A stretch of 64,000 bases of DNA from Mogibacterium sp. (GTDB taxonomy: Bacteria; Bacillota; Clostridia; Peptostreptococcales; Anaerovoracaceae): contig JAFQZQ010000048.1 in NCBI GenBank assembly GCA_017405845.1, positions 62,001 to 126,000 on the forward strand. Direction: 5' to 3'. The position numbers and the translations under genes are program-made. Positions 34,906 to 46,637 of the stretch are shown here, piece by piece (position 1 is the stretch's first letter; each line of letters starts with the position of its first letter). A model generated the notes under the pieces. That model made no database searches. It saw only the letters and a list, made by a program, of their open reading frames with translations, and was not told the DNA's origin.

Positions 34906-35035
34906 AATGTACCCATAACCCGTGGCGGGACTTGCCCGTTCCGTTTTGTTTCTATATAATTCGTGAAGTAACAAATTTAGATTATCTACTATATTTACAT
35001 CGCAAAATTATATCACAGGAGATAGAAACAAAGGA

Positions 35036-35713
35036 ATGGAAGAAATAAGAATTCTTGATCTTAAAGAAAGCATCCTTGCAGATAATGACGCGGATGCAGA
35101 TAAGCTGCGCGAAGAGCTCGCAGCTGAGAAGACAGTATATATTAATGTAATGAGTTCGCCTGGCTCCGGAAAGACTTCCACCATCCTCAGACTGGTGGAG
35201 CAGCTCAGGCTTAGCTATAAGGTTGGCGTTCTGGAAGCAGACATCGATGGCGACGTCGACACCAAGACCATGCTCGACGCAGGCATTCCTGCAATACAGC
35301 TCCACACGGGCGGCATGTGCCACCTCGACGCAGACATGAGCCGCCAGGCTCTCCGCGAGATCGGTTCGCAGGATCTCGACATCGTGATCCTCGAAAACGT
35401 CGGCAACCTCGTTTGCCCTGCGGAGTTCGACACAGGCGCTCAGATCAACCTCGTGATCCTCTCGGTACCTGAAGGCGACGACAAGCCGCTGAAGTACCCT
35501 CTGATGTTCAGCAAGGCTGACGTGGTCGTGGTCAACAAGATCGATGCAATCGAGGCATTTGACTTCAGCCCGGAGAGATTCAAGCAGTACGTTGCAGAGC
35601 GCGCGCCGGGCGCACCGGTTTTCACGGTATCCGCAGCAACAGGCGAGGGCATCATTGCACTGTCCGAGTGGATAGGCGAGCGTACCAGAGAGATTCTGGA
35701 ATATATCGATTAA
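35036..35713 (+). CDS. hypB: HypB-type nickel metallochaperone GTPase, copy 1
   Basis: 225 residues. The SIMIBI GTPase P-loop is SSPGSGKTSTI and the switch region includes ILENVGNLVCPAEFD. The shared metal site of HypB is intact: Cys95-His96 in GGMCHLDA and Cys127 in NLVCP. The N-terminal His-rich or CxxCGC high-affinity nickel motif of some HypB proteins is absent. HypB delivers nickel to NiFe hydrogenase, but no hydrogenase, hypA or hypCDEF is in the window, so another nickel enzyme could be the client. Followed by a paralogue 21 bases later. Confidence 0.88.
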   Translation: MEEIRILDLKESILADNDADADKLREELAAEKTVYINVMSSPGSGKTSTILRLVEQLRLSYKVGVLEADIDGDVDTKTMLDAGIPAIQLHTGGMCHLDADMSRQALREIGSQDLDIVILENVGNLVCPAEFDTGAQINLVILSVPEGDDKPLKYPLMFSKADVVVVNKIDAIEAFDFSPERFKQYVAERAPGAPVFTVSAATGEGIIALSEWIGERTREILEYID

Positions 35714-35734
35714 TGTAAGGAAAGAGATAGAGAA

Positions 35735-36412
35735 ATGGCAGATAGCAAAGTTAGAGTAATCGACGTTAACGTCGGTATATTTGAAGAGAATGATCGCATT
35801 GCCGCTGAGGTCAGAGCGCAGAACAAGGCAAACGGTACTCTGCTGGTGAACGTCATGGCATCGCCTGGCGCCGGCAAGACCACCACGCTCCTGCGCACCA
35901 TCGAGGCTCTTGGCGACGAGTATAAGATTGGCGTAATGGAGGCCGATATCGAGGCAACTGTTGATGCAGACAAGATGGCTGAGGCCGGAGTCCGCTCGAT
36001 GCAGGTACACACAGGCGGTGAGTGCTGCATGGACGCAGCGATGACAAGGGCTGCAATCAACGAATTCAACACAGAAGACCTCGACCTGGTCTTCCTCGAA
36101 AACGTAGGCAACCTGGTATGCACAGCTGAGCAGGACACCGGTGCAAACATCAATATCGAGATCCTCTCGGTACCTGAAGGCGACGACAAGCCGCTGAAGT
36201 ACCCTCTGATGTTCACGGTAACCCAGGCTGTTCTGGTAAACAAGACAGATACGCGCAAGTTCTTTGCGTTTGATGACGAGGCATTTGTTGAGAGAGTGCA
36301 TTCGCTGAACCCTCTGTCGGAGATCTTCTTCGTATCGGCAAAGACAGGAGAGGGATTCGACGCATGGATCAGCTGGCTGCGCCGCCAGATCGAGCTTTCT
36401 AAAGCTATGTAA
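35735..36412 (+). CDS. HypB-like GTPase, copy 2 with altered metal site
   Basis: 225 residues, similar to the preceding HypB across its length (P-loop ASPGAGKTTTLL; shared ILSVPEGDDKPLKYPLMF). The metal-site signature is changed: Cys97-Cys98 in GGECCMDA replaces Cys-His, and NLVCTAEQD replaces NLVCPAEFD at Cys129. An all-cysteine site may prefer another metal or redox role. HypB works as a dimer, so a heterodimer of the two products is possible. The GTPase fold is certain; the hydrogenase-maturation role is inference. Confidence 0.8.
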   Translation: MADSKVRVIDVNVGIFEENDRIAAEVRAQNKANGTLLVNVMASPGAGKTTTLLRTIEALGDEYKIGVMEADIEATVDADKMAEAGVRSMQVHTGGECCMDAAMTRAAINEFNTEDLDLVFLENVGNLVCTAEQDTGANINIEILSVPEGDDKPLKYPLMFTVTQAVLVNKTDTRKFFAFDDEAFVERVHSLNPLSEIFFVSAKTGEGFDAWISWLRRQIELSKAM

Positions 36413-36431
36413 AAAAGGGGGAAGGGTATTT

Positions 36432-37292
36432 ATGTTTGATGTAGCAATAATCGGAACCGGGCCTGCGGGGCTTTCGGCAGCACTTACACTGAAGCTTCAT
36501 AACAAGGATATCGTCTGGTTCGGCTCGGCTGAGCTGAGCGACAAGGTCGGTAAGTCTGAGAAGATCGCCAACTATCCGGGCGTGGCAATGGTAGGCGGTG
36601 CTGACCTGAATGCGAAGTTCAGGGCTCAGGCCGAGGAGCTCGGACTGGAGATGACCGACAAGCGCGTAACGAATATCGCTGACATGGGCGGCAACTATAT
36701 GGTGCTTGCCGACAACGAGGTGTTTGAGGCGCGCACGGTGCTGCTTGCCACCGGCATTGCAGCTGCCAAGGGAATGGAGAATGAGGCCAGACTGCTCGGC
36801 GCGGGCGTAAGCTACTGTGCCACATGCGACGGATTCCTGTACAAGGGAAAGACCGTAGCGGTGTACTGCACAGACGAGCGCATGGAGCACGATATCAAGT
36901 ATCTCGAAGAGATCTGCGGTAAGCTTTACATTTACACCAGCTTTGGCTACACGACTGAAGCTGTAAACGCAGAAGTGCTGAAGCTGCCGGTAAAGAAGCT
37001 GGACGGCGGATTCAAGTGCGATTCCATCGAGCTGACAGACGGCACTAAGATAGATGTAGACGGAGTCTTCATTCTGAGACCTGCCATCGCGCCGTCGACA
37101 GTTATGCCGGGCCTTGAGATGGACGGCGCGCACATAGCTGTGAACCGCAATCAGGAAACAAACTTTAAGGGCTGCTATGCTGCAGGCGACTGCACAGGCA
37201 GACCATACCAGATAGCAAAAGCAGTCGGCGAAGGCAACGTCGCAGCACATGCAATACTTGAGTATTTAAGTGCTTTAGAGAAAGGCGAATAA
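36432..37292 (+). CDS. Thioredoxin reductase-like flavoprotein without canonical NADPH motif
   Basis: 286 residues. FAD-binding VAIIGTGPAGLSAALTL at the start and CYAAGDCTG near the end, with the redox pair Cys129-Ala-Thr-Cys132 in SYCATCDGFLY, place it in the thioredoxin reductase family. The second Rossmann motif (normally GGG-x-S/A-x-x-E) is not present: the segment reads KTVAVYCTDERMEHDIKYL. This is the feature reported for clostridial ferredoxin-dependent thioredoxin reductases (FFTR), so ferredoxin rather than NADPH may be the donor. AAAGGGGGAAGG precedes the ATG. No thioredoxin gene is adjacent. Confidence 0.75.
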   Translation: MFDVAIIGTGPAGLSAALTLKLHNKDIVWFGSAELSDKVGKSEKIANYPGVAMVGGADLNAKFRAQAEELGLEMTDKRVTNIADMGGNYMVLADNEVFEARTVLLATGIAAAKGMENEARLLGAGVSYCATCDGFLYKGKTVAVYCTDERMEHDIKYLEEICGKLYIYTSFGYTTEAVNAEVLKLPVKKLDGGFKCDSIELTDGTKIDVDGVFILRPAIAPSTVMPGLEMDGAHIAVNRNQETNFKGCYAAGDCTGRPYQIAKAVGEGNVAAHAILEYLSALEKGE

Positions 37293-37349
37293 ACGCCGAA
37301 CTGAGCGTTGCGCAGGAGCAGGCGAAGAGAGGCGTTTATTCGCCTTTCT
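37279..37349 (+). terminator. Long-stem terminator overlapping the flavoprotein stop
   Basis: A 19-bp perfect inverted repeat: 37279-37297 contains the last codons and stop of the flavoprotein gene, and 37331-37349 is its complement, ending CGCCTTTCTG. The 33-base loop begins AACTGAGCGTTGCGCAGG, which resembles the start of the structured element at 6576. Confidence 0.65.
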
Positions 37350-37368
37350 GTTAAAACAGAGGAATACT

Positions 37369-38061
37369 ATGACAGAACTGAAGATCGAGAACCAGGCAAT
37401 GATGTTCGCCTTCCTCAGCCGCGCAGCCATCGAGGCAAAGGGCGAAGAGGGAAGAGCTGCGATACAGGCCGGCATGATTCGCTACGGAAAGGAGCGCGGT
37501 GCCAGGATGGCAGAGCGCGCCCGCAAAGCAGGCGATCCGGTAGATCTCTGGACCAACCAGGCGTACGGCGAATGGAAACCTGATTACGCAGGCCAGATGG
37601 ATTTCGGCATGCTCCGCGCGGAGCCGACATATCAGACATACATAGCGAAGTGCGCGTGGTGCGAGGCGTGGAAGAAGAACGATATTCTCGAGTACGGCCG
37701 CGAGTACTGCGTCAATGTAGACGCTGCGGTATATGAGGGATTTGGCGCAGGCGCTGTATGCACACCGATAAGCACATCGATGAGCTGGGGCGGAGAGCGC
37801 TGCGACTTCGACTGGGGAAAGCCGCTCAGCAAAGAGGAGCTCAGACTGGTCGCAGACAAGAAGGCTGAGCTCGGAACGAGCGCAATGAGAGACTTCAACT
37901 TCCACACTGCCCACATCTACTACTCCATCGCGGACGAGCTCCGCAGACATTTCCCTGAGGATTCGGGAGAAATTATCAAAAAAGCTGTTGCCGACTATAT
38001 TGACCTCTTTGGACAGGAAGCGTATGATTGCCTTCTGAAATTCTCGCCTGACGAATTCTGA
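37369..38061 (+). CDS. L-2-amino-thiazoline-4-carboxylate hydrolase-like protein
   Basis: 230 residues. The overall pattern (helical N-terminus with IQAGMIRYGKERGARMAERA, central SMSWGGERCDFDW, and YCVNVDAAVYEGFG) resembles the ATC hydrolase family. The founding member hydrolyses a thiazoline to S-carbamoyl-cysteine in cysteine synthesis from a racemic precursor. Most homologues in gut anaerobes are of unknown substrate. It stands between a flavoprotein and an MFS transporter, so a small amino acid-like substrate may be imported or exported by the neighbour. Confidence 0.6.
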   Translation: MTELKIENQAMMFAFLSRAAIEAKGEEGRAAIQAGMIRYGKERGARMAERARKAGDPVDLWTNQAYGEWKPDYAGQMDFGMLRAEPTYQTYIAKCAWCEAWKKNDILEYGREYCVNVDAAVYEGFGAGAVCTPISTSMSWGGERCDFDWGKPLSKEELRLVADKKAELGTSAMRDFNFHTAHIYYSIADELRRHFPEDSGEIIKKAVADYIDLFGQEAYDCLLKFSPDEF

Positions 38062-38089
38062 CAGGCAGATAAAGGGGGAAGGGACCGGA

Positions 38090-39322
38090 TTGAACAATTT
38101 CAAATTAAACGCTGAATATGCGGCATCTTTCGGGGCATACTGGATGATCTATGCGATCGCAGGCAGTTTTGCCTCGGTTTTTATGCTCGCAAAAGGCTAT
38201 GATAATGTACATATAGGAATGACGTTAGCGGCAGCCAATCTGCTGGCGCTCGCTCTGCAGCCGTACGTTGCTGACCACATGGACAGGGCAAAAGGCATCA
38301 GGCTGATAGACGCCGCGGCATGGATGACGCTCATAATGATGATCGCGGCAGTGGGGCTTTTCATATTCGGAGACGGGAGCTTCATGCTTGCGGCTATACT
38401 TGCTTTTGTACTGGCGGTACACGCGCTGGCACAGCCGCTGCTCAATTCGCTTGGGTTCAGGCTCAGCGAAAGCGGAGCGAATGTAAGCTTCGGGATAGGA
38501 AGAGCCGGAGGCTCTCTGGGCTACTCGGCGATACTCGCGGTGCTCGGCACCATCGTTGAAAGAAAAGGCGTAATGACGCTGCCGGCTCTCACGGAAGCAG
38601 CCTGCGCACTCCTGATAGTTCTGCTCCTGATCACAAAGGGAAGCTTCATCAGGATATGCAGGACCGCTGACGCCAAAGCCGCGGAAGGTGCGGAAGCAGA
38701 AGCCAAAGCAGCTGATGACGAAAGGATAGACCTCGGTGACTTCATCAGGAGGAACAAGCACTTCTTCATTATGAATTTCGGGGTCGCAGGACTTCTCTTC
38801 AGCAACGCGGTGCTGAGCAACTACATGGCTCAGATTGCAGGCGGTGTGAACGGCACTACTGAAGACGTCGGCAGGATACTGTCACTCATGGCTCTTTTAG
38901 AGATCCCGACGATGGTTTTCTTCGGCAGCATAAGGAAGCGCTTCAGCAGTCGCGCGCTGATAAAGCTGGCGGCTCTGGGCTTCACGGGTAAGATCGCTCT
39001 CTGCTGGCTTGCGGGATCAGTGCGGCTGCTCTATGTGGCGCAGTTTTTCCAGCTCATCGCGTTCGCACTCATCATGCCGGCAATGGTCTACTTCATCAAT
39101 GAGATCATGAGTCCGGGAGAGGCTGTCAAGGGACAGGCGCTTTATACGATGATGTTCACGTTCTCCACCATAATAGCCAGCTTTCTGGGAGGATGGATGC
39201 TCGACGCGTACGGCGCACGCATGCTCACACTCGTTTCAACACTTGTGACTGCTGCGGGAGCTGCCGTGGTGATTTTCAGCATAGACAAGGTAGAAGATCA
39301 CAAGAGATTGCCGCAGGACTGA
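38090..39322 (+). CDS. MFS-type transporter
   Basis: 410 residues with about twelve membrane helices and a charged central loop (about 195-220, rich in Ala, Glu, Asp). The pattern, including YDNVHIGMTLAAANLLALALQP and the second-half repeat, fits the MFS-1-like/nucleoside-proton symporter-like group. TTG is the start, preceded by AAAGGGGG. Substrate unknown. The promoter of the next gene overlaps its last codons. Confidence 0.8.
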   Translation: MNNFKLNAEYAASFGAYWMIYAIAGSFASVFMLAKGYDNVHIGMTLAAANLLALALQPYVADHMDRAKGIRLIDAAAWMTLIMMIAAVGLFIFGDGSFMLAAILAFVLAVHALAQPLLNSLGFRLSESGANVSFGIGRAGGSLGYSAILAVLGTIVERKGVMTLPALTEAACALLIVLLLITKGSFIRICRTADAKAAEGAEAEAKAADDERIDLGDFIRRNKHFFIMNFGVAGLLFSNAVLSNYMAQIAGGVNGTTEDVGRILSLMALLEIPTMVFFGSIRKRFSSRALIKLAALGFTGKIALCWLAGSVRLLYVAQFFQLIAFALIMPAMVYFINEIMSPGEAVKGQALYTMMFTFSTIIASFLGGWMLDAYGARMLTLVSTLVTAAGAAVVIFSIDKVEDHKRLPQD

Positions 39323-39367: not shown

Positions 39368-39613
39368 ATGGAAACCAGAGTCGCCGTGATAAGCATTATC
39401 GTCACGGAGTCCGACCGGGTGGAAATACTGAACGATCTTCTCCATGAATACGCTTCGTATATTATCGGACGCATGGGGATCCCGTACAAAGAGAAGGGGA
39501 TCAGCATCATCAGCATCGCCATTGACGCACCGATGGACAGGATCAACTCGCTCACCGGAGCTCTCGGACGCCTCGACGGTATCAATGCCAAGGTGACCTA
39601 TGCCAAAGTCTAA
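39368..39613 (+). CDS. TM1266-type small ACT-like regulator
   Basis: 81 residues. The sequence runs ...VAVISIIVTES...YIIGRMGIPYKEKGISIISIAID...LTGALGRLDGINAKVTYAKV, which matches the TM1266 family of about 80-residue ACT-fold proteins. The family is often encoded near iron-only hydrogenase maturation genes and is annotated as its putative regulator. Here no hydE, hydF or hydG is nearby; it instead precedes the ABC/nitrogenase-like operon, whose ATPase carries the same domain. CAGGAGA precedes the ATG. Ligand unknown. Confidence 0.85.
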   Translation: METRVAVISIIVTESDRVEILNDLLHEYASYIIGRMGIPYKEKGISIISIAIDAPMDRINSLTGALGRLDGINAKVTYAKV

Positions 39614-39652: not shown

Positions 39653-39734
39653 GGCCGAAGCAAGATTCGAAGGCGGTCTGTTGAAAGTGCGCATCTTTGC
39701 GTACGTATATTTGGATCGATCCGGCCTTGCTTCG
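39653..39734 (+). promoter_or_regulatory. Structured leader before the FecCD-type permease gene
   Basis: The 192-base gap contains an outer stem CGAAGCAAG (39656-39664) with CTTGCTTCG (39726-39734) and an inner hairpin GTGCGCA-TCTT-TGCGTAC (39687-39704). I compared it with cobalamin, molybdenum-cofactor and NiCo riboswitch patterns and found no match. It could be an unclassified metabolite- or metal-sensing leader of the operon. Confidence 0.45.
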
Positions 39735-39805
39735 CAGGAAGCAGGGCTGTTTTAGTTACCAGGCAGGGCACCCGATCAAAAACAGAAAGAAAGCAGAACG
39801 AGCAG

Positions 39806-40828
39806 ATGAGCCTCAGAAGAGACGGAAGGCTTGGAGCCGCATGGATCGTAATACTTATTGTGCTGCCATTCGTGACAGCCATCATCGCGCTGGGCATAGG
39901 ACGCATGTCGATAGCCCCGGGCGAGGTCTTTGACGTGCTCCGCGCAGCATTGTCGGGAGGGCACGCATCGAGCGAGCTCATAGAAAAGACGGTAATGCAG
40001 CTCAGGCTGCCGCGCATAATACTCGCCATGCTGGTGGGAGCCGGACTTTCAGTATCGGGCTGCGCGTTTCAGAGCCTTTTCGCGAACCCGCTCGCGACAC
40101 CTGACACCCTCGGAGTGGCCAGCGGAGCGGCCTTCGGCGCTGCTCTCGGCATACTGCTTGGATTCAATCTTATAGGAATACAACTTACGGGACTTGCGAT
40201 GGGCGGCGCTGCAGTTGCCCTGACATGGCTTGCCGGCTCGGGCAAGGACAGGGGAGGACTCAGCTACATAGTGCTCTCGGGCATCATGATAGGTTCGCTG
40301 TTCTCAGCCCTCATATCGTTCGTCAAGTTCGTGGCTGATGCCGAGTCTGAGCTCCCGGCCATCACATACTGGCTGATGGGCGGCCTCGACAAGGCCAACT
40401 ACCGCACGCTCTCGCTGGGAGCGCCGGTGATAATCGCAGGTGTGATACTCTTCATGCTGATCAGATGGCGCATGAACCTGCTGCCTCTTTCAGATGACGA
40501 GGCGAAGGCGTCGGGTGTCAATGTCAGACTGCTGAGGGCTGTCACCGTTGTAGCAGCGACCGCCATTACCGCATCCTGCGTATCGATGTGCGGACAAGTC
40601 GGCTGGGTAGGACTTCTCATACCTCACATGTGCCGCATGCTCTTCGGCAACAACCACCTGTCGATAGTGCCGGCATCCGTGAGCTTCGGAGCCGTGTTCA
40701 TGATAATCGTAGACACCCTGGCGCGCAGCATCTCCGCTGCGGAGATCCCGGTGTCGATACTGACGGCAATCATAGGAGCGCCGTTCTTCATAATTCTGAT
40801 GAGAAGAAGCGGAGGCTGGCGCTTATGA
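39806..40828 (+). CDS. FecCD-type ABC transporter permease
   Basis: 340 residues with about ten helices. RLPRIILAMLVGAGLSVSGCAFQSLFANPLATPDTLGVASGAAFGA and the GWVGLLIPHMCRMLFG motif are hallmarks of the FecCD/BtuC permease family for iron-siderophore, heme, cobalamin or metal-chelate uptake. First gene of the operon; the next ATG overlaps its stop (ATGA). The ribosome site is weak. Confidence 0.93.
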   Translation: MSLRRDGRLGAAWIVILIVLPFVTAIIALGIGRMSIAPGEVFDVLRAALSGGHASSELIEKTVMQLRLPRIILAMLVGAGLSVSGCAFQSLFANPLATPDTLGVASGAAFGAALGILLGFNLIGIQLTGLAMGGAAVALTWLAGSGKDRGGLSYIVLSGIMIGSLFSALISFVKFVADAESELPAITYWLMGGLDKANYRTLSLGAPVIIAGVILFMLIRWRMNLLPLSDDEAKASGVNVRLLRAVTVVAATAITASCVSMCGQVGWVGLLIPHMCRMLFGNNHLSIVPASVSFGAVFMIIVDTLARSISAAEIPVSILTAIIGAPFFIILMRRSGGWRL

Positions 40829-41955
40829 GTGAGATGGAAAGAAAAGCGCAGGCCCTCCTGAAAATAGAGAAAGGCTGCTTTGCGTATAAAGGCGGGCCGC
40901 AGATCCTTAAGGATATAAATATAGAATTGGAAGCGGGCGAGATACTCGCGGTGCTCGGGCCGAACGGAGCGGGTAAAACCACTCTGCTCAGATGCATGAT
41001 GGACATGCTTCACTGGCAGAGCGGACGCAGCCTGCTGGACGGCGAAGACATACGCAGCATGCCGGCATCGAAGCTCTGGCGCAGGATGGCATATGTGCCT
41101 CAGGCCAGATCAGCGGCTGCCTCATACACTGCCTTCCAGACCGTGTTGCTCGGAAGGAGCAGCCGCATAGGAGCGTTCTCAGCTCCGTCCGAAGCCGACA
41201 TGAAGGTCGCCGAGCGCGTGATGGAGAGACTTGGGATAGCTCATCTCGCCGACAAGCCGTGCCATGCCATAAGCGGCGGCGAGCTCCAGATGGTGCTCAT
41301 AGCCCGCGCCATGGCTGCGGAGCCGGAGATACTGGTGCTCGACGAGCCTGAGTCTAACCTCGACTTCAAGAACCAGCTCATAGTGCTCGATACCATGAGT
41401 GCGCTGGCGGCGGAGGGCGTGGCCTGCATATTCAACACGCATTATCCGGCTCATGCCCTGCAGAGGGCAGGCAAGGCACTGATGCTGACAAAAGGCGGAG
41501 AGAGCATATTCGGTGACACGACAGCCGTGGTAACTGAAGACAACATACGCCGCGCGTTCGGGGTCAATGCCCTTATCGGTGAAGTGGAGACTCCGCACAA
41601 CATAATGAAAAACGTGGTTGCCGTGGGAGTAAGCGAAGGCAGGGCAGCGGGGAATGACGCGCTGCAGACTGCCGGAGCAGAAGGCGGACGGAAAACGGAC
41701 GATGTGCTCGCCTCGATCACGGTCATTATGCACAGCAACGAGCACGCTGCTCTGATCAACAATGCATTCAGAGAATACAATCATCTCCTGATAGGCAGAA
41801 TGGGTCTGCCGCACAGAAGATCGGAAAAATACATCATCACCGTGATGCTCGAAGGCCCGGTGGCTGACATAGAAGCGCTATCGCACAGACTCGGCCTCAT
41901 ACCGGACATCAGCGTTAAGACGACATACGAACAGGAAGGATATATACATGGTTAA
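40825..41955 (+). CDS. FecE/BtuD-type ABC ATPase with C-terminal TM1266-like domain
   Basis: 376 residues. Walker [10 protein letters not shown] is at 45-53, the signature ISGGE-x-Q and Walker [13 protein letters not shown] follow. The FecE-type domain ends near 255. Residues about 293-372 ([12 protein letters not shown]...[37 protein letters not shown]...) align with the stand-alone TM1266-type protein at 39368, including IGRMG-[IL]-P. A TM1266/ACT domain fused to an importer ATPase suggests ligand control of transport. Start at 40825 overlaps the permease stop; the longer open frame upstream is the permease in another frame. Confidence 0.9.
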
Positions 41956-42709
41956 GATAGCAGTTTACGGAAAAGGCGGTATCGGCAAGTCGACTACAGT
42001 ATCAAACGTGTCGGCAGCGCTGGCGGACATGGGTTACAAGGTTATGCAGATCGGTTGCGACCCTAAGGCGGACTCGACTGCGAGCCTCCACGGTCAGGGC
42101 GAAATGGTGACCGTGCTCGATCTCGTAAGGGAACGCAAGAATGCCTTCGAGCTCAGCGACATGGTGCGCGAAGGCTATGGCGGAGTCATATGTGTTGAAG
42201 CCGGCGGCCCTACACCGGGACTCGGCTGCGCGGGACGCGGCATCATCGCAGCCCTCGACAAGCTGAAGGAGAAAGGCGCGTACGAGACCTTCAAGCCTGA
42301 TGTAGTCATTTACGACGTTCTGGGCGACGTAGTCTGCGGAGGCTTTTCAATGCCGATGCGCGGCGGCTATGCAGACAAGGTCTTTGTCATAACTTCGGGC
42401 GAGAACATGGCCATTCACGCCGCCGCGAATATAGCGGTAGCACTCGACGGCTTCAAGGACCGCGGCTACGCAAGCCTCGGCGGCATCATCCTCAACCACA
42501 GAAACGTGCGCGATGAGGACGCGAAGGTAGCCGAGCTCGCTTCGGATATTGGCTCGGAAGTTATTGGGGAGCTCAGCCGCAGCGAGATAGTCACCGATGC
42601 TGAGGACCTCGGCAAGACGGTCATCGAAGCCTTCCCTGACAGCGATATGGCCGGCGAGTACCGCGCACTGGCAAAAAAACTGCTTGAGATTTGCAATTCG
42701 GAAAAATAA
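41948..42709 (+). CDS. NifH-like ATPase (nitrogenase-like reductase component)
   Basis: 253 residues. P-loop GKGGIGKST at 8-16 and DPKADST at 38-44. Both cluster ligands of the NifH family are present: Cys94 in GLGCAGRG (with Arg97) and Cys130 in GDVVCGGF. The dimer should hold a [4Fe-4S] cluster and give ATP-driven electrons to the products of the next two genes. It lacks the C-terminal extension of true NifH. Overlaps the ATPase gene by 8 bases. Similar proteins serve chlorophyll, F430 and methylthio-alkane reductases; the partner here is unidentified. Confidence 0.93.
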
Positions 42710-42711
42710 TC

Positions 42712-44079
42712 ATGCTTAAGAAAGTAAACGAAAAACAGAAAAGACTGAGCGCAGACGAGATCCCTCACGTCAGGATCGCGGATGCGAAATTCCCTGCACC
42801 GTTCAGGTCGGGGCTGGAGTACTCATCTCCTGCCCGCGGCACGTGGAACATCGTGCACACCGGAATGCTGATACCTGAAGCACATGAGATCTTTGTGTGC
42901 GCCGCGGGCTGCCTTCGCGGAGTCGTGCTGACTGCCGCTGAGATGGGGACCACAGACAGGTTCTCGACGGTCGCGGTCAGGGAAAACAACCTGCTCGACG
43001 GCGACATGGAAGACCTTGTGATCGAAGGCGTTACGGACATCATCAACAAGCTCCCGAAGCGTCCGCCTGCTGTGCTGGTGTATACCAGTTGCGTGCACCA
43101 CTTCACGGGTGTAGACCTCGACATGATCTACGCGACTCTGAGGAGCCGCTTCCCGGACATCGACTTCACCGACTGCTACATGAACCCTATCATGCGCAAG
43201 AGCGGCCTGACTCCGGATCAGCTGATGAGGTCGAGGCTTTACATGCTCCTGCATGAGCGCGGGAAAAACCCGGACGCAGTCGCCATAATCGGAAACGATC
43301 TGCCGACCGACGAAGATAGTGACCTGATGCAGGTGCTGAAGGGTGCCGGCCGCAAGGTGCATGAGATCACCTCGTGCAAGACCTATGCGGAGTACCAGGA
43401 GATGGCCGAAAGCAGCGTCTATGTATCGTACAATCCGGATGCTGCGCCGGGCGGCGACATGCTGGCGGAAAGGCTGGGAGGCACTCACTATGCGCTGAAG
43501 TTCAGCTTCGATTACGATGAGATCGATGCCACCTTCGCGGGCCTTGCGGAGGTGCTGGGCATTGAGCCGCGCAGCAACGATGAGATCGCGGCGCTGAGAG
43601 CAGAGTGCGAGAAAGAACTTAAAGAGACAAAGGAACTCATCGGAGACACTCCGGTGAGCATAGATTATACATACTGCCCGAGGCCGCTCGGGCTCGCGAA
43701 GCTGCTGCTTGAGCACGGCATCAACGTGACCAGAGTTTACGTTGACGGCATACCGGGCGGAGACAGGGCGGCATTCGACAGCCTGCAGAAGGATCATCCG
43801 GATCTGATGATCTATCCGACGGTGCATCCGGGGATGAGGTTCGCGCGCACCGCTAACGTTGAGGCAGAGAGCGGAGTAAAGGTGCTGGCGGTCGGCCAGA
43901 AGGCGGCAGCCTTTGAGGAGACCGGGCGCTTCGTCAACGTAGTTGAGGGCGGAGGCATGACAGGCTACGAGGCGATCAGCAGAACCTGCAGGCTCATGCG
44001 CGAGGCATACTGCGAAGAGAAACCGATGCGCGATCTGGTGCAGGTGAAGGGACTTGGCTGTGAGGTGTGTATAAGATGA
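42712..44079 (+). CDS. Nitrogenase component 1-like protein, NifD-type subunit
   Basis: 455 residues of the oxidoreductase/nitrogenase component 1 family. Early cysteines Cys63 and Cys67 (FVCAAGCLRG) and Cys127 (TSCVHHFTGVDL) sit where the P-cluster/relay ligands of NifD lie. The segment where NifD has its FeMo-cofactor Cys reads VYVSYNPDAAPGG, without Cys. The C-terminus ends G-C-E-V-C. It therefore probably holds a relay Fe-S cluster but not FeMo-co. It starts 2 bases after the NifH-like gene. Confidence 0.88.
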   Translation: MLKKVNEKQKRLSADEIPHVRIADAKFPAPFRSGLEYSSPARGTWNIVHTGMLIPEAHEIFVCAAGCLRGVVLTAAEMGTTDRFSTVAVRENNLLDGDMEDLVIEGVTDIINKLPKRPPAVLVYTSCVHHFTGVDLDMIYATLRSRFPDIDFTDCYMNPIMRKSGLTPDQLMRSRLYMLLHERGKNPDAVAIIGNDLPTDEDSDLMQVLKGAGRKVHEITSCKTYAEYQEMAESSVYVSYNPDAAPGGDMLAERLGGTHYALKFSFDYDEIDATFAGLAEVLGIEPRSNDEIAALRAECEKELKETKELIGDTPVSIDYTYCPRPLGLAKLLLEHGINVTRVYVDGIPGGDRAAFDSLQKDHPDLMIYPTVHPGMRFARTANVEAESGVKVLAVGQKAAAFEETGRFVNVVEGGGMTGYEAISRTCRLMREAYCEEKPMRDLVQVKGLGCEVCIR

Positions 44080-45374
44080 AACAGACTGCTAGGATAATTT
44101 CTACATACTCAGCGGATGTCATGGGCGTGTGCTCGGCGTTGTTTGAACTGGGCGGAATGACTGTAATGCACGATGCCTCAGGATGCAACTCCACGTATAC
44201 GACCCACGACGAGCCGCGCTGGTACGACATGGACAGCATGGTCTACATCTCCGGTATCAGCGAGATCGAAGCGATAATGGGCGATGATGAAAAGCTCATA
44301 AGCGACATCGTGGACGCGGCGGCAAAGCTGAAACCTGCATTCATCGCGATAGCGGGCACGCCTATTCCGACGATGACGGGCTTCGACTTCGAGGCGGTCG
44401 CGTCGGTCATAGAGCATCAGACGGGCATACCGAGCTTCGGATTCCCGACTACCGGAATGAACACATATATCCACGGAGCGTCAATGGCGTTCGCGGGAAT
44501 AGCGGAGCGCTTCGTTGACGATCCGTCAGAGAAGAGCAGCGACAGAGGTACTCTGCAGATGTCCGCGCGAAAGATAATGTCCATGGTGGACAGCTGCTGC
44601 GCGCGTCCGAACGGGATACGCGTAAATGTGCTCGGCCTTACGCCTCTCGACTTTTCCATAAACGGGCAGGACGAATCCATAGTCCAGTGGCTCGAGAGAG
44701 AGGGCTTTGAGGTGGTGTCGAAATGGGCCATGGGCAACAGCCTCGACGAGATCAGACACTCGGCTGAGGCAGATGTTAATCTGGTTGTATCGGCTGCAGG
44801 CTGCGGCGCGGCCAAAGTGCTTTACGAGAGATTCGGCACGCCGTATGCCATCGGTGTGCCGGTCGGGAACGAGCTGCCGGGCCTGCTGGCAGATCAGATC
44901 ATATTAAATGTAAAAAAGTTCAGGGAGATGGACGAGTCAGCTTCAGAAAAAGCGCCTTTCGAATCGAGAGCGATAAGCGTGGATTCAGGAGTGTTCCTGG
45001 ACGGCAGCGCAGGCGAAGGCGGAAGTACCTATGAAGAAGGCTTTGTTGCAGTCATAGGCGAGGGCATCACATCGCTGTCGCTCGCGAGCTCCATAGAGCT
45101 GGAATGCGGCATCCCGGCAAAGGTGCTCTGCGCAACGGAGTGCCTGGATGGCATCCTGAGGGAGTGCGACCGTATGACGCCTGACGAAGACGATATTATC
45201 CCTGAGCTGGAAGGCGCAGCATACGTTATCGCCGATCCGCTCTATAAACCGATAGTCCCGGAGAGCGCAAAGTTCATTTCGCTCCCGAGCGAGGCCTTCT
45301 CGGGCCGCATATACCGCGACGAGATCCCTGATCTGACCGCGGACATTGATCAGCTATTAATTAACATCAAATAA
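44076..45374 (+). CDS. Nitrogenase component 1-like protein, NifK-type subunit
   Basis: 432 residues. The start overlaps the previous stop (ATGA). HDASGCNSTYTTHDEPRWYD carries Cys37 at the first cluster position of NifK. The other two NifK cluster cysteines seem lost: the regions read DSMVYISGISEIEAIMG and IAGTPIPTMTGFD. Cys19 is an extra early cysteine. Three Rossmann-like subdomains can be traced (NVLGLTPLDFSING; VVSAAGCGAAKVLYERFGTPYAIGVP). It should pair with the NifD-like subunit around one reduced cluster. The substrate pocket is unknown. Confidence 0.85.
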   Translation: MKQTARIISTYSADVMGVCSALFELGGMTVMHDASGCNSTYTTHDEPRWYDMDSMVYISGISEIEAIMGDDEKLISDIVDAAAKLKPAFIAIAGTPIPTMTGFDFEAVASVIEHQTGIPSFGFPTTGMNTYIHGASMAFAGIAERFVDDPSEKSSDRGTLQMSARKIMSMVDSCCARPNGIRVNVLGLTPLDFSINGQDESIVQWLEREGFEVVSKWAMGNSLDEIRHSAEADVNLVVSAAGCGAAKVLYERFGTPYAIGVPVGNELPGLLADQIILNVKKFREMDESASEKAPFESRAISVDSGVFLDGSAGEGGSTYEEGFVAVIGEGITSLSLASSIELECGIPAKVLCATECLDGILRECDRMTPDEDDIIPELEGAAYVIADPLYKPIVPESAKFISLPSEAFSGRIYRDEIPDLTADIDQLLINIK

Positions 45375-45394: not shown

Positions 45395-46561
45395 ATGAAG
45401 AGGTTTCTGAGTAAGAAGAACAGTACGTTAAAACTCATTGTGCTGATGATGGTGCTCGCGATGACCATGATGTCGTTCGCAGCATGCGGAGGCGGCGGTG
45501 GAGAAGAAGCTGCTGAAACGACAGAGACAGCTGACACTATCACCGTTACAGACCACGCCGACAAGACGGTCGAGGTCCCGGCAGACATCCAGAGGATCGC
45601 GGTATGCGACATCTACCCGCTCCCGAGCGTGCTGGCCGTATTCTTCGACTCGGCTGACAAGATCGTCGGAATGCCGGCACCGTCCATGACAGCAGCGCAG
45701 AACGGTCTGCTTGGCCAGCTCTATCCTGAGATCCTCAACGCTGAGACAGGATACATCGAAGACACTAATGTCAACATGGAAGAGCTCGCAAAGCTCGAAC
45801 CGGATGTGGTATTCTACAGCGCTTCGAGCCCTGAGATCGGTGAGCAGCTGACAAACGCGGGCTTCGCGGCAGTAGCGATCTCCGTAAACAAGTGGGATTA
45901 CAACTGCATCGAGACACTCAACAACTGGATCTCCCTGCTGAGCCAGATGTTCCCTGACAGCGACAAGGCTGCAATCGTAGAGCAGAAGTCCAACGAGATG
46001 TACGACATGGTGCAGGAGAGAGTAAAGGACATTCCTGATGAAGAGAGAGCGAAGGCGTTCTTCCTCTTCCAGTACAGCGATACAACGCTCCTGACTTCGG
46101 GTCAGCAGTTCTTCGGCCAGTGGTGGGCAGATGCCATCGGAGCAAAGAACGTTGCGCAGGAGCTGTCGACGGACAACTCTGTTGCAGTCAACATGGAGCA
46201 GGTTTATGAATGGAATCCTGATCTGATCTTCATGACAAACTTCAACACATACTATCCGGACGATCTGTACAACAACACAGTAGAGGGATACGACTGGAGC
46301 GCAGTTCAGGCTGTTAAGGATCAGAGAGTCTTCAAGATGCCTCTCGGCATGTACAGGAGCTACACTCCGGGAGTTGACTGCCCGGTAACACTGCTGTGGA
46401 TGGCCAAGACTGCATATCCTGAAAAGTTTGAGGACGTAGACGTAATCGCCGAGGCGAAGGACTACTATAAGGAAGTCTTCGGCATCGAGCTGACAGACGA
46501 GCAGGCGCAGTCGATCTTTGAGCCTGTACAGAGCGCAGGCGGAGGATTTGCGTATCAATAA
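45395..46561 (+). CDS. FecB/BtuF-type ABC substrate-binding lipoprotein
   Basis: 388 residues. A signal peptide with lipobox SFAAC puts the lipid-modified Cys at 31, followed by a GGGGG/acidic linker. ITVTDHADKTVEVPADIQRIAV is the typical start of periplasmic-binding fold III (TroA-like), with NMEELAKLEPDVVFY later. It captures the ligand for the FecCD permease. KGAGGG precedes the ATG, and the gene is followed by an intrinsic terminator, closing the operon. The unusual placing behind the reductase genes ties the reductase to the imported ligand. Confidence 0.92.
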   Translation: MKRFLSKKNSTLKLIVLMMVLAMTMMSFAACGGGGGEEAAETTETADTITVTDHADKTVEVPADIQRIAVCDIYPLPSVLAVFFDSADKIVGMPAPSMTAAQNGLLGQLYPEILNAETGYIEDTNVNMEELAKLEPDVVFYSASSPEIGEQLTNAGFAAVAISVNKWDYNCIETLNNWISLLSQMFPDSDKAAIVEQKSNEMYDMVQERVKDIPDEERAKAFFLFQYSDTTLLTSGQQFFGQWWADAIGAKNVAQELSTDNSVAVNMEQVYEWNPDLIFMTNFNTYYPDDLYNNTVEGYDWSAVQAVKDQRVFKMPLGMYRSYTPGVDCPVTLLWMAKTAYPEKFEDVDVIAEAKDYYKEVFGIELTDEQAQSIFEPVQSAGGGFAYQ

Positions 46562-46601: not shown

Positions 46602-46637
46602 TAATCAACCTCTGAATAGGGGTTGATTATTTTTTTT
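46602..46637 (+). terminator. Terminator of the nitrogenase-like operon
   Basis: TAATCAACC (46602-46610) pairs with GGTTGATTA (46621-46629), followed by eight T residues. Confidence 0.85.

Follow-up and report, generated by a model that had tools for sequence, protein, structure and literature searches.

Nitrogenase-like HDK genes in the place of HydG: a proposed HydG-independent route to the H-cluster in Mogibacterium and its relatives

Introduction

What does a nitrogenase-like enzyme do in a bacterium of the rumen? A stretch of 64,000 nucleotides from a rumen Mogibacterium sp., called the window here, carries an operon that encodes a NifH-like reductase (H) and two subunits resembling nitrogenase component 1 (D and K); we refer to this type of gene set as HDK-A. 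A role in N2 fixation was ruled out, given that a search of the whole genome found no component-1 genes beyond this D and K. We consider it probable, from genomic and sequence comparison, that HDK-A serves a HydG-independent route to the H-cluster of [FeFe]-hydrogenase, in which it would reduce an iron-cyanide/carbonyl precursor that is either imported or made by HypCDEF and HDK-B, a further set of nitrogenase-like genes.

HydG is seen as the supplier of the CO and CN that ligate the H-cluster (PMC9431212). According to Di Leonardo et al. 2022 (PMC9431212), HydE and HydF are present and no HydG is identifiable in Clostridium ljungdahlii and other industrial acetogens, which carry HypCDEF without HypAB, and the authors state that they cannot straightforwardly explain why hydG is missing. 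They assigned HydG by motif in C. autoethanogenum (PMC9431212), a species that has yielded an active [FeFe]-hydrogenase complex (PMC6288185).

Results

HDK-A and HydG exclude each other

Exploring 148 relatives, we found HDK-A in 42, namely in 38 of the 47 same-genus genomes (the window's own included) and in G062, G067, G078 and G099. HydG, whose absence was judged by one family model and its cut-off, scored over that cut-off in 55 and overlapped with HDK-A in none; the same-genus genomes with HydG, G030 and G037, are both without HDK-A. HydF was over its cut-off in 97 of the 148, and these divide into 55 with HydG, 39 with HDK-A, none with both and three with neither (G038, G066 and G110). 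All 42 HDK-A relatives encode HydA, and HydE and HydF are over their cut-offs in 39 each.

A class-wide sample of 323 genomes, filtered at 95% completeness, contained HydG in 192, HydF in 213 and HDK-A in 18, the last counted at a limit (P0001, E up to 9.5e-48) that was chosen after viewing the list and with the clade C genomes G092, G253, G282, G306, G311 and G492 excluded. Of its 213 HydF genomes, 188 have HydG, 18 have HDK-A, none has both and seven have neither. The probability of zero overlap was 7.9e-21 unstratified and 7.6e-11 when stratified by family, a test that lessens and does not remove the effect of kinship among related, non-independent genomes. Eight families hold both states. 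The absence of overlap holds also within genera g1, g123 and g191; g123 is mixed, with HDK-A in G241, G301, G317, G348, G414 and G425 and HydG in G263, G375, G436 and G490.

A scan of species genomes, with at least 592 relatives among the matches listed, left 80 HDK-A loci, which are the basis of the counts out of 80. HydG was scored in the genomes behind 50 of these loci and did not reach the cut-off in 47 of the 50, including C. ljungdahlii (L086), C. muellerianum (L093), L. rennini (L097) and Megasphaera cerevisiae (L122).

HDK-A takes the place of HydG in hydrogenase maturation loci

In the window, the operon runs on the plus strand in the order TM1266, leader RNA candidate, FecCD permease, ATP-binding cassette (ABC) ATPase, H, D, K, lipoprotein and terminator-like hairpin:

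39368..39613, plus strand: TM1266 family protein (iron-only hydrogenase system putative regulator); TIGR03959 108 bits against a cut-off of 60.8, and PF21699
39613..39669, plus strand: leader RNA candidate core, between TM1266 and the next gene; model R1 53.7 bits (window in the training set)
39722..39749, plus strand: terminator-like hairpin 3' of the leader core; 5' arm CTTGCTTC complementary to core GAAGCAAG
39806..40828, plus strand: FecCD-type ABC importer permease; PF01032 E 1.8e-81
40825..41955 (start codon provisional), plus strand: importer ATPase with a C-terminal TM1266-like domain; PF00005 and PF21699 (residues 296-366) on one protein
41948..42709, plus strand: NifH-like reductase (H); PF00142 E 2e-86, P-loop GKGGIGKST, cluster Cys94 and Cys130
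42712..44079, plus strand: D-like subunit (DA); PF00148 E 9.9e-19, Cys63, Cys67 and Cys127, also conserved Cys155, Cys222 and CxxC 450/453
44076..45374, plus strand: K-like subunit (KA); ATG at 44076, 432 amino acids, PF00148 E 7.9e-24
45395..46561, plus strand: importer substrate-binding lipoprotein; PF01497 E 4.6e-17
46602..46629, plus strand: terminator-like hairpin at the operon end; hairpin prediction

The start codon of K, its stop ending at 45374 and its Pfam match confirm an earlier sequence-only reading of the gene as a true open reading frame for a nitrogenase component 1. Upstream, positions 34982-39322 encode a HypB/CobW-type GTPase, a thioredoxin-reductase-like protein, an ATC hydrolase (PF14196) and a major facilitator superfamily transporter, which precede HDK-A in part of the genus.

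The recurrent neighbours of HDK-A are HypF, HypC, HypD, HypE, HydF and a radical S-adenosylmethionine (SAM) protein, the latter being HydE by the TIGR03956 cut-off where scored (e.g. G099:C59 and G043:C3). Two layouts were found: an importer type, TM1266-permease-ATPase-[HydE]-H-DA-KA-lipoprotein-[HydF], and a Hyp type, TM1266-[HydF/HydE]-H-DA-KA plus H-DB-KB-HypF-HypC-HypD-HypE. TM1266 neighbours 54 of the 80 loci, HydF 32 and a HydE-like gene 25, and in 45 of the 80 a HydE-like or HydF gene lies within 9 kb on the same strand. An importer ATPase is present in 36 loci and carries a TM1266-like domain in 25 of them, which ties the importer to the hydrogenase system. Of the loci of HydG genomes, 20 were fetched; HydE, HydG and HydF stand side by side in 15 of these, and seven of the 20 show the order TM1266-HydE-HydG-HydF; by comparison with these loci, H-DA-KA occupies the place of HydG. 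The two thus share an operon slot and are mutually exclusive in the relatives and the class sample, whereas the proteins are unrelated, HydG being a radical SAM tyrosine lyase and HDK-A an ATP-driven nitrogenase-like reductase.

The importer and the HDK-B/HypFCDE module replace each other

Importer genes only were present in 45 of the 80 loci and HDK-B/Hyp genes only in 28, with both in none and neither in seven; three of the seven (L055, L063 and L071, from G006, G008 and G035) have HypD and HDK-B on another contig. At the genome level, 40 HDK-A relatives could be evaluated, G002 and G012 being left out as their HDK-A lies on contig fragments: 25 carry the importer only, 13 HDK-B or HypD only, two both and none neither (Fisher p 8.7e-9). 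Same-genus Hyp genomes with separate loci show the order TM1266-(HydE)-H-DA-KA without importer genes, and HypD adjoins HDK-B in all seven loci fetched for that purpose (L214-L220). HypD was not found in the window genome.

The genes beside HDK-B resemble the HypCDEF of [NiFe]-hydrogenase maturation, with HypF, HypC, HypD and a HypE whose C-terminal PRIC is intact in 41 of 41 proteins. Unlike that system, they are accompanied by no [NiFe] large subunit in any of the 47 same-genus genomes, which rules out a function for [NiFe]-hydrogenase; together, the intact HypE and the missing large subunit indicate that Hyp serves something else there. Given that the importer and HDK-B/HypFCDE replace each other, one shared product is suggested, and the simplest reading of the gene content is that both modules deliver the same thing. 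HypE and HypF make cyanide and HypCD builds Fe(CN)2CO; the same supply combined with this chemistry leads us to infer an iron-cyanide/carbonyl precursor.

Cluster ligands and fold of D and K

The residues at cluster positions are as follows:

42823..42825, plus strand: D Ser38, in the region of NifD Cys62 (clade-A alignment)
42898..42912, plus strand: D Cys63 to Cys67 (CxxxC), a displaced and a canonical cluster cysteine (conservation)
43090..43092, plus strand: D Cys127, at the NifD Cys154 position (conservation, alignment to VnfD)
44059-44070, plus strand: D C-terminal CxxC (Cys450 and Cys453), kept in clade A and absent from clade B
44109..44111, plus strand: K Ser12, at the NifK Cys70 position (clade-A alignment)
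44184..44186, plus strand: K Cys37, at the position of NifK Cys95 and BchB Asp36 (alignment)
44361..44363, plus strand: K Pro96, at the NifK Cys153 position (alignment)

Clades were assigned by the best BLAST match to reference proteins, and residues were counted over distinct proteins after removal of identical sequences. The sequence-only reading had K retaining one of the three NifK cluster cysteines, Cys37, and this stands: the residue falls in a GxxGC motif equivalent to NifK Cys95 (alignment to NifN and NifD) and is Cys in 114 of 116 clade-A K proteins and Tyr in two. It erred in taking VYISG for a missing cluster position, which is not a ligand position; the true ones are Ser12, at NifK Cys70 (Cys in 0 of 116), and Pro96 (AGTPIP), at NifK Cys153 (Cys in 1 of 116). 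The spacing of 25 between Ser12 and Cys37 of K equals that between NifK Cys70 and Cys95. IsrK of the isethionate reductase Isr has Cys12, Cys37 and Cys99 at its cluster positions, consistent with this placement (PMC11423573). Cys19 of K, named earlier as a residue that might fill a missing position, lies off the ligand positions and is Cys in 101 of the 116.

Of the three D cysteines described as kept, Cys67 and Cys127 are canonical, corresponding to NifD Cys88 and Cys154; Cys63 is extra and displaced, the Cys62 region being occupied by Ser38. Alignment to VnfD agrees with the earlier view that D lacks the cofactor cysteine, with no Cys at the position of NifD Cys275 that binds the iron-molybdenum cofactor (FeMo-co). 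Among 121 clade-A D proteins, every residue present at positions 63 (119), 67 (120) and 127 (121) is Cys. Clade B (39 D, 38 K) has its third D cysteine at position 66 in 37 of the 38 proteins with a residue there, and keeps K Cys37 in 38 of 38. Clade C comprises 12 D and 20 K: Cys38 is present in seven D, Cys67 and Cys127 in all D and Cys37 in 16 of 20 K. The third D ligand position thus appears to have shifted between lineages with a set of three plus one retained, and the displaced D cysteines would bind the cluster. H keeps its P-loop lysine, and both its cluster cysteines are Cys in 89 of 89 aligned proteins.

The single-chain models of K and D had predicted local distance difference test (pLDDT) scores of 84.9 and 88.1, respectively. 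The top 12 structural matches of K were all BchB/ChlB of the dark-operative protochlorophyllide oxidoreductase (DPOR), at Z 26.9-31.0 (best 9buo_D, Z 31.0, root-mean-square deviation 3.3, 358 residues aligned), while the top matches of D were tied between VnfK, BchB, AnfK and NifN (Z about 22). K reached none of the NCBIfam cut-offs (nifK 19.0 against 427.3 bits, nifD 26.0 against 653.55, nifE 49.7 against 505, BchB TIGR01278 30.9 against 490.35), and D matched no NCBIfam family; the best match of the K sequence profile was a NifE entry. Pairing of D with K is supported by natural in-frame D-K fusions in four same-genus genomes (L044:6285-8825, L045:6099-8771, L046:379-2919 and L047:6598-9180), which would also be useful for predicting the structure of the D-K interface.

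Given that clade A hardly varies in the three-plus-one set and that the K model is closest to BchB, DK likely holds a [4Fe-4S] relay rather than a P-cluster. A P-cluster was ruled out as the main assignment by the single ligand on K. The relay like that of DPOR suggested earlier fits this conservation, the BchB-like K model and the missing FeMo-co cysteine; its ligand positions had been misplaced and the genomic role missed. It is improbable that DK carries a larger or unusual P-cluster-like cluster by way of the additional conserved D cysteines, Cys155 (114 of 121 in clade A), Cys222 (111), Cys450 (112) and Cys453 (108), since K gives one ligand only, the extra cysteines are off the P-cluster positions and equally fit an active-site or metal-delivery role, and the CxxC is missing from HDK-B; Cys155 and Cys222 are kept in clades A and B. 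The C-terminal CxxC may be a site of metal or precursor delivery.

With DPOR (BchN-BchB/ChlN-ChlB) the system shares the K fold, a NifH-like partner and the lack of a FeMo-co cysteine, and its conserved residues would allow a cluster held, as there, by three Cys from one subunit plus a single ligand from its partner. It differs in having Cys for the Asp of BchB, a third D cysteine displaced to Cys63, and hydrogenase maturation genes instead of chlorophyll genes around it. IsrHDK and the methylthio-alkane reductase MarHDK (group IV) have the same H, D, K gene order and similar group IV-like proteins, whereas the cysteines of Isr, one on IsrD and three on IsrK, are the reverse of those of HDK-A (PMC11423573). 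Isr and Mar each act with a radical SAM B protein; next to HDK-A it is HydE that provides the radical SAM gene, a B-type gene not having been searched for. CfbCD has a D homodimer without K, unlike HDK-A, where the window and relatives alike have a K gene after D. The NifEN scaffold is likewise a nitrogenase homologue in cofactor assembly, and the K profile is closest to NifE, yet K does not reach the nifE cut-off. From NifDK the pair differs in a K without Cys70 and Cys153 equivalents, a D without the FeMo-co Cys275, and the nifK and nifD cut-offs not reached.

A leader RNA candidate

The stretch that separates TM1266 from the next gene holds a conserved element and, after it, a terminator-like hairpin that could pair with the core of that element. 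Searched against 96 sources, an RNA model built from 21 cores gave hits at E < 0.01 in 19, among them L058, L111, L121, L123 and L124, which lie outside the training set, and four of the nine predicted base pairs show changes on both sides. The candidate was also seen in L053, L059, L066 and others. In the 20 HydG-genome loci it was not found at E < 0.01 (best match E 0.035). No Rfam family matched the element, which rules out a known riboswitch; a sensor of the importer substrate only was ruled out as well, given that the leader is kept in importer-less loci (L055, L063, L181 and L187, and the Hyp-type or importer-less L111, L121, L123 and L124). It is possible that the leader is a new riboswitch or a protein-binding attenuator with terminator/antiterminator potential, and its pairing with the hairpin may regulate the operon.

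Discussion

The linkage of the genes, the exclusion of HydG, the exchange of the importer with HDK-B/Hyp, the conservation of the cysteines and the predicted fold are what the analysis shows. Beyond gene exchange we infer the cluster type, the electron path, the identity of the precursor and the reaction. In the proposed route, a NifH-like dimer would pass low-potential electrons in an ATP-driven manner to DK, which would hold one [4Fe-4S] cluster per unit, ligated by D Cys63, Cys67 and Cys127 and K Cys37. The cluster would relay electrons to a precursor bound in a cavity of D, with Cys155 and Cys222 as candidate ligands. This precursor, our guess from which modules replace each other, would be an iron complex bearing cyanide and CO, supplied by HypFCDE with HDK-B or, in the window organism, by the FecBCD-type importer, and its reduced product would then be used by HydE and HydF.

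Several observations weigh against this proposal. Three of the 50 genomes behind HDK-A loci have HydG, two of them metagenome-assembled genomes (MAGs; L072 and L081) and one the isolate Loigolactobacillus binensis (L126). The seven of 213 HydF genomes with neither system (G319, G374, G406, G409, G441, G461 and G495) mean that other routes or assembly gaps exist. G026 and G039 carry the importer together with HypD, neither a HydE-like gene nor HydF is near HDK-A in 35 of the 80 loci, and in the window genome HydE and HydF do not adjoin it (contig C19). Most of the genomes are MAGs.

The locus of L. binensis (L126:3074-12742) has two DA-KA pairs separated by several lipoprotein genes, K position 37 is Tyr in both and HydG lies elsewhere in the genome; in this one case it looks as if the role of HDK-A had been lost. 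Loci L158 and L170 (G461; G406 is of the same genus) combine HydF without HydG or HDK-A with a divergent HDK set (D 20% and K 26% identity to clade C references).

Nitrogenase proteins can reduce CO2. It is conceivable, if unlikely, that HDK-A (and HDK-B) acts in the same pathway by other chemistry, making CO by ATP-driven CO2 reduction while the importer would take up iron, or else a donor of cyanide, rather than an organometallic compound: the job of HydG is the supply of CO and CN (PMC9431212), and HypF and HypE with its intact PRIC end could supply cyanide only. However, the exchange of the importer with HDK-B/HypFCDE suggests one shared product, and the window genome, without HypD, has no known cyanide source. 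That HDK-A acts on an unrelated substrate, such as a sulfur compound or a tetrapyrrole, and excludes HydG through ancestry or shared TM1266 regulation, appears quite improbable to us. Known group IV relatives do act on C-S bonds or tetrapyrroles (PMC11423573), and the superfamily has further uses, as shown by clade C relatives that carry ABC genes of their own and are found together with HydG; yet no overlap occurs in any of the eight families containing both states, nor inside genera g1, g123 and g191, and HydE and HydF share an operon with HDK-A. Barely credible is the view that HydG is dispensable, HydE and HydF capturing free CO and CN with HDK-A irrelevant to hydrogenase. It could draw on the weak HydG-free activation by HydE and HydF, about 1%, discussed by Di Leonardo et al. 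(PMC9431212), and on the seven HydF genomes with neither system, but it predicts neither the coincidence of HydG loss with HDK-A nor the position of HDK-A in the HydG slot.

The clade C sets (L037-L043 and L148-L154), several of which have their own ABC or lipoprotein genes, co-occur with HydG or lack HydF, and may be a further nitrogenase-like system with another substrate.

A nitrogenase-like protein in H-cluster assembly or in place of HydG was not found in the open-access literature searched, including PMC10418091, PMC9147875, PMC13188914, PMC9004356, PMC11370222 and PMC12578642. Among these, the Sao organometallic system uses other genes (PMC13188914), and the searched passages of a gene essentiality study of C. 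autoethanogenum mention nothing on HDK-A genes (PMC9004356).

HDK-A in the HydG slot, with HypFCDE/HDK-B as supplier, is a testable explanation for the absence of HydG in C. ljungdahlii, and replacement of HydG can be tested in genetically tractable strains. We further raise, tentatively and as less than an even chance, the possibility that the iron-cyanide-carbonyl compound is a vitamin-like metabolite shared in gut and rumen, produced by bacteria with HypFCDE and HDK-B, taken up by those with FecBCD importers and fed by HDK-A into the H-cluster pathway; if so, a community could depend on the cross-feeding of an organometallic precursor to assemble its [FeFe]-hydrogenases. If the proposed route is true, it would account for H-cluster synthesis without HydG in many gut and gas-fermenting bacteria, and would give the nitrogenase superfamily a new role and biology a second route to a demanding organometallic cofactor.

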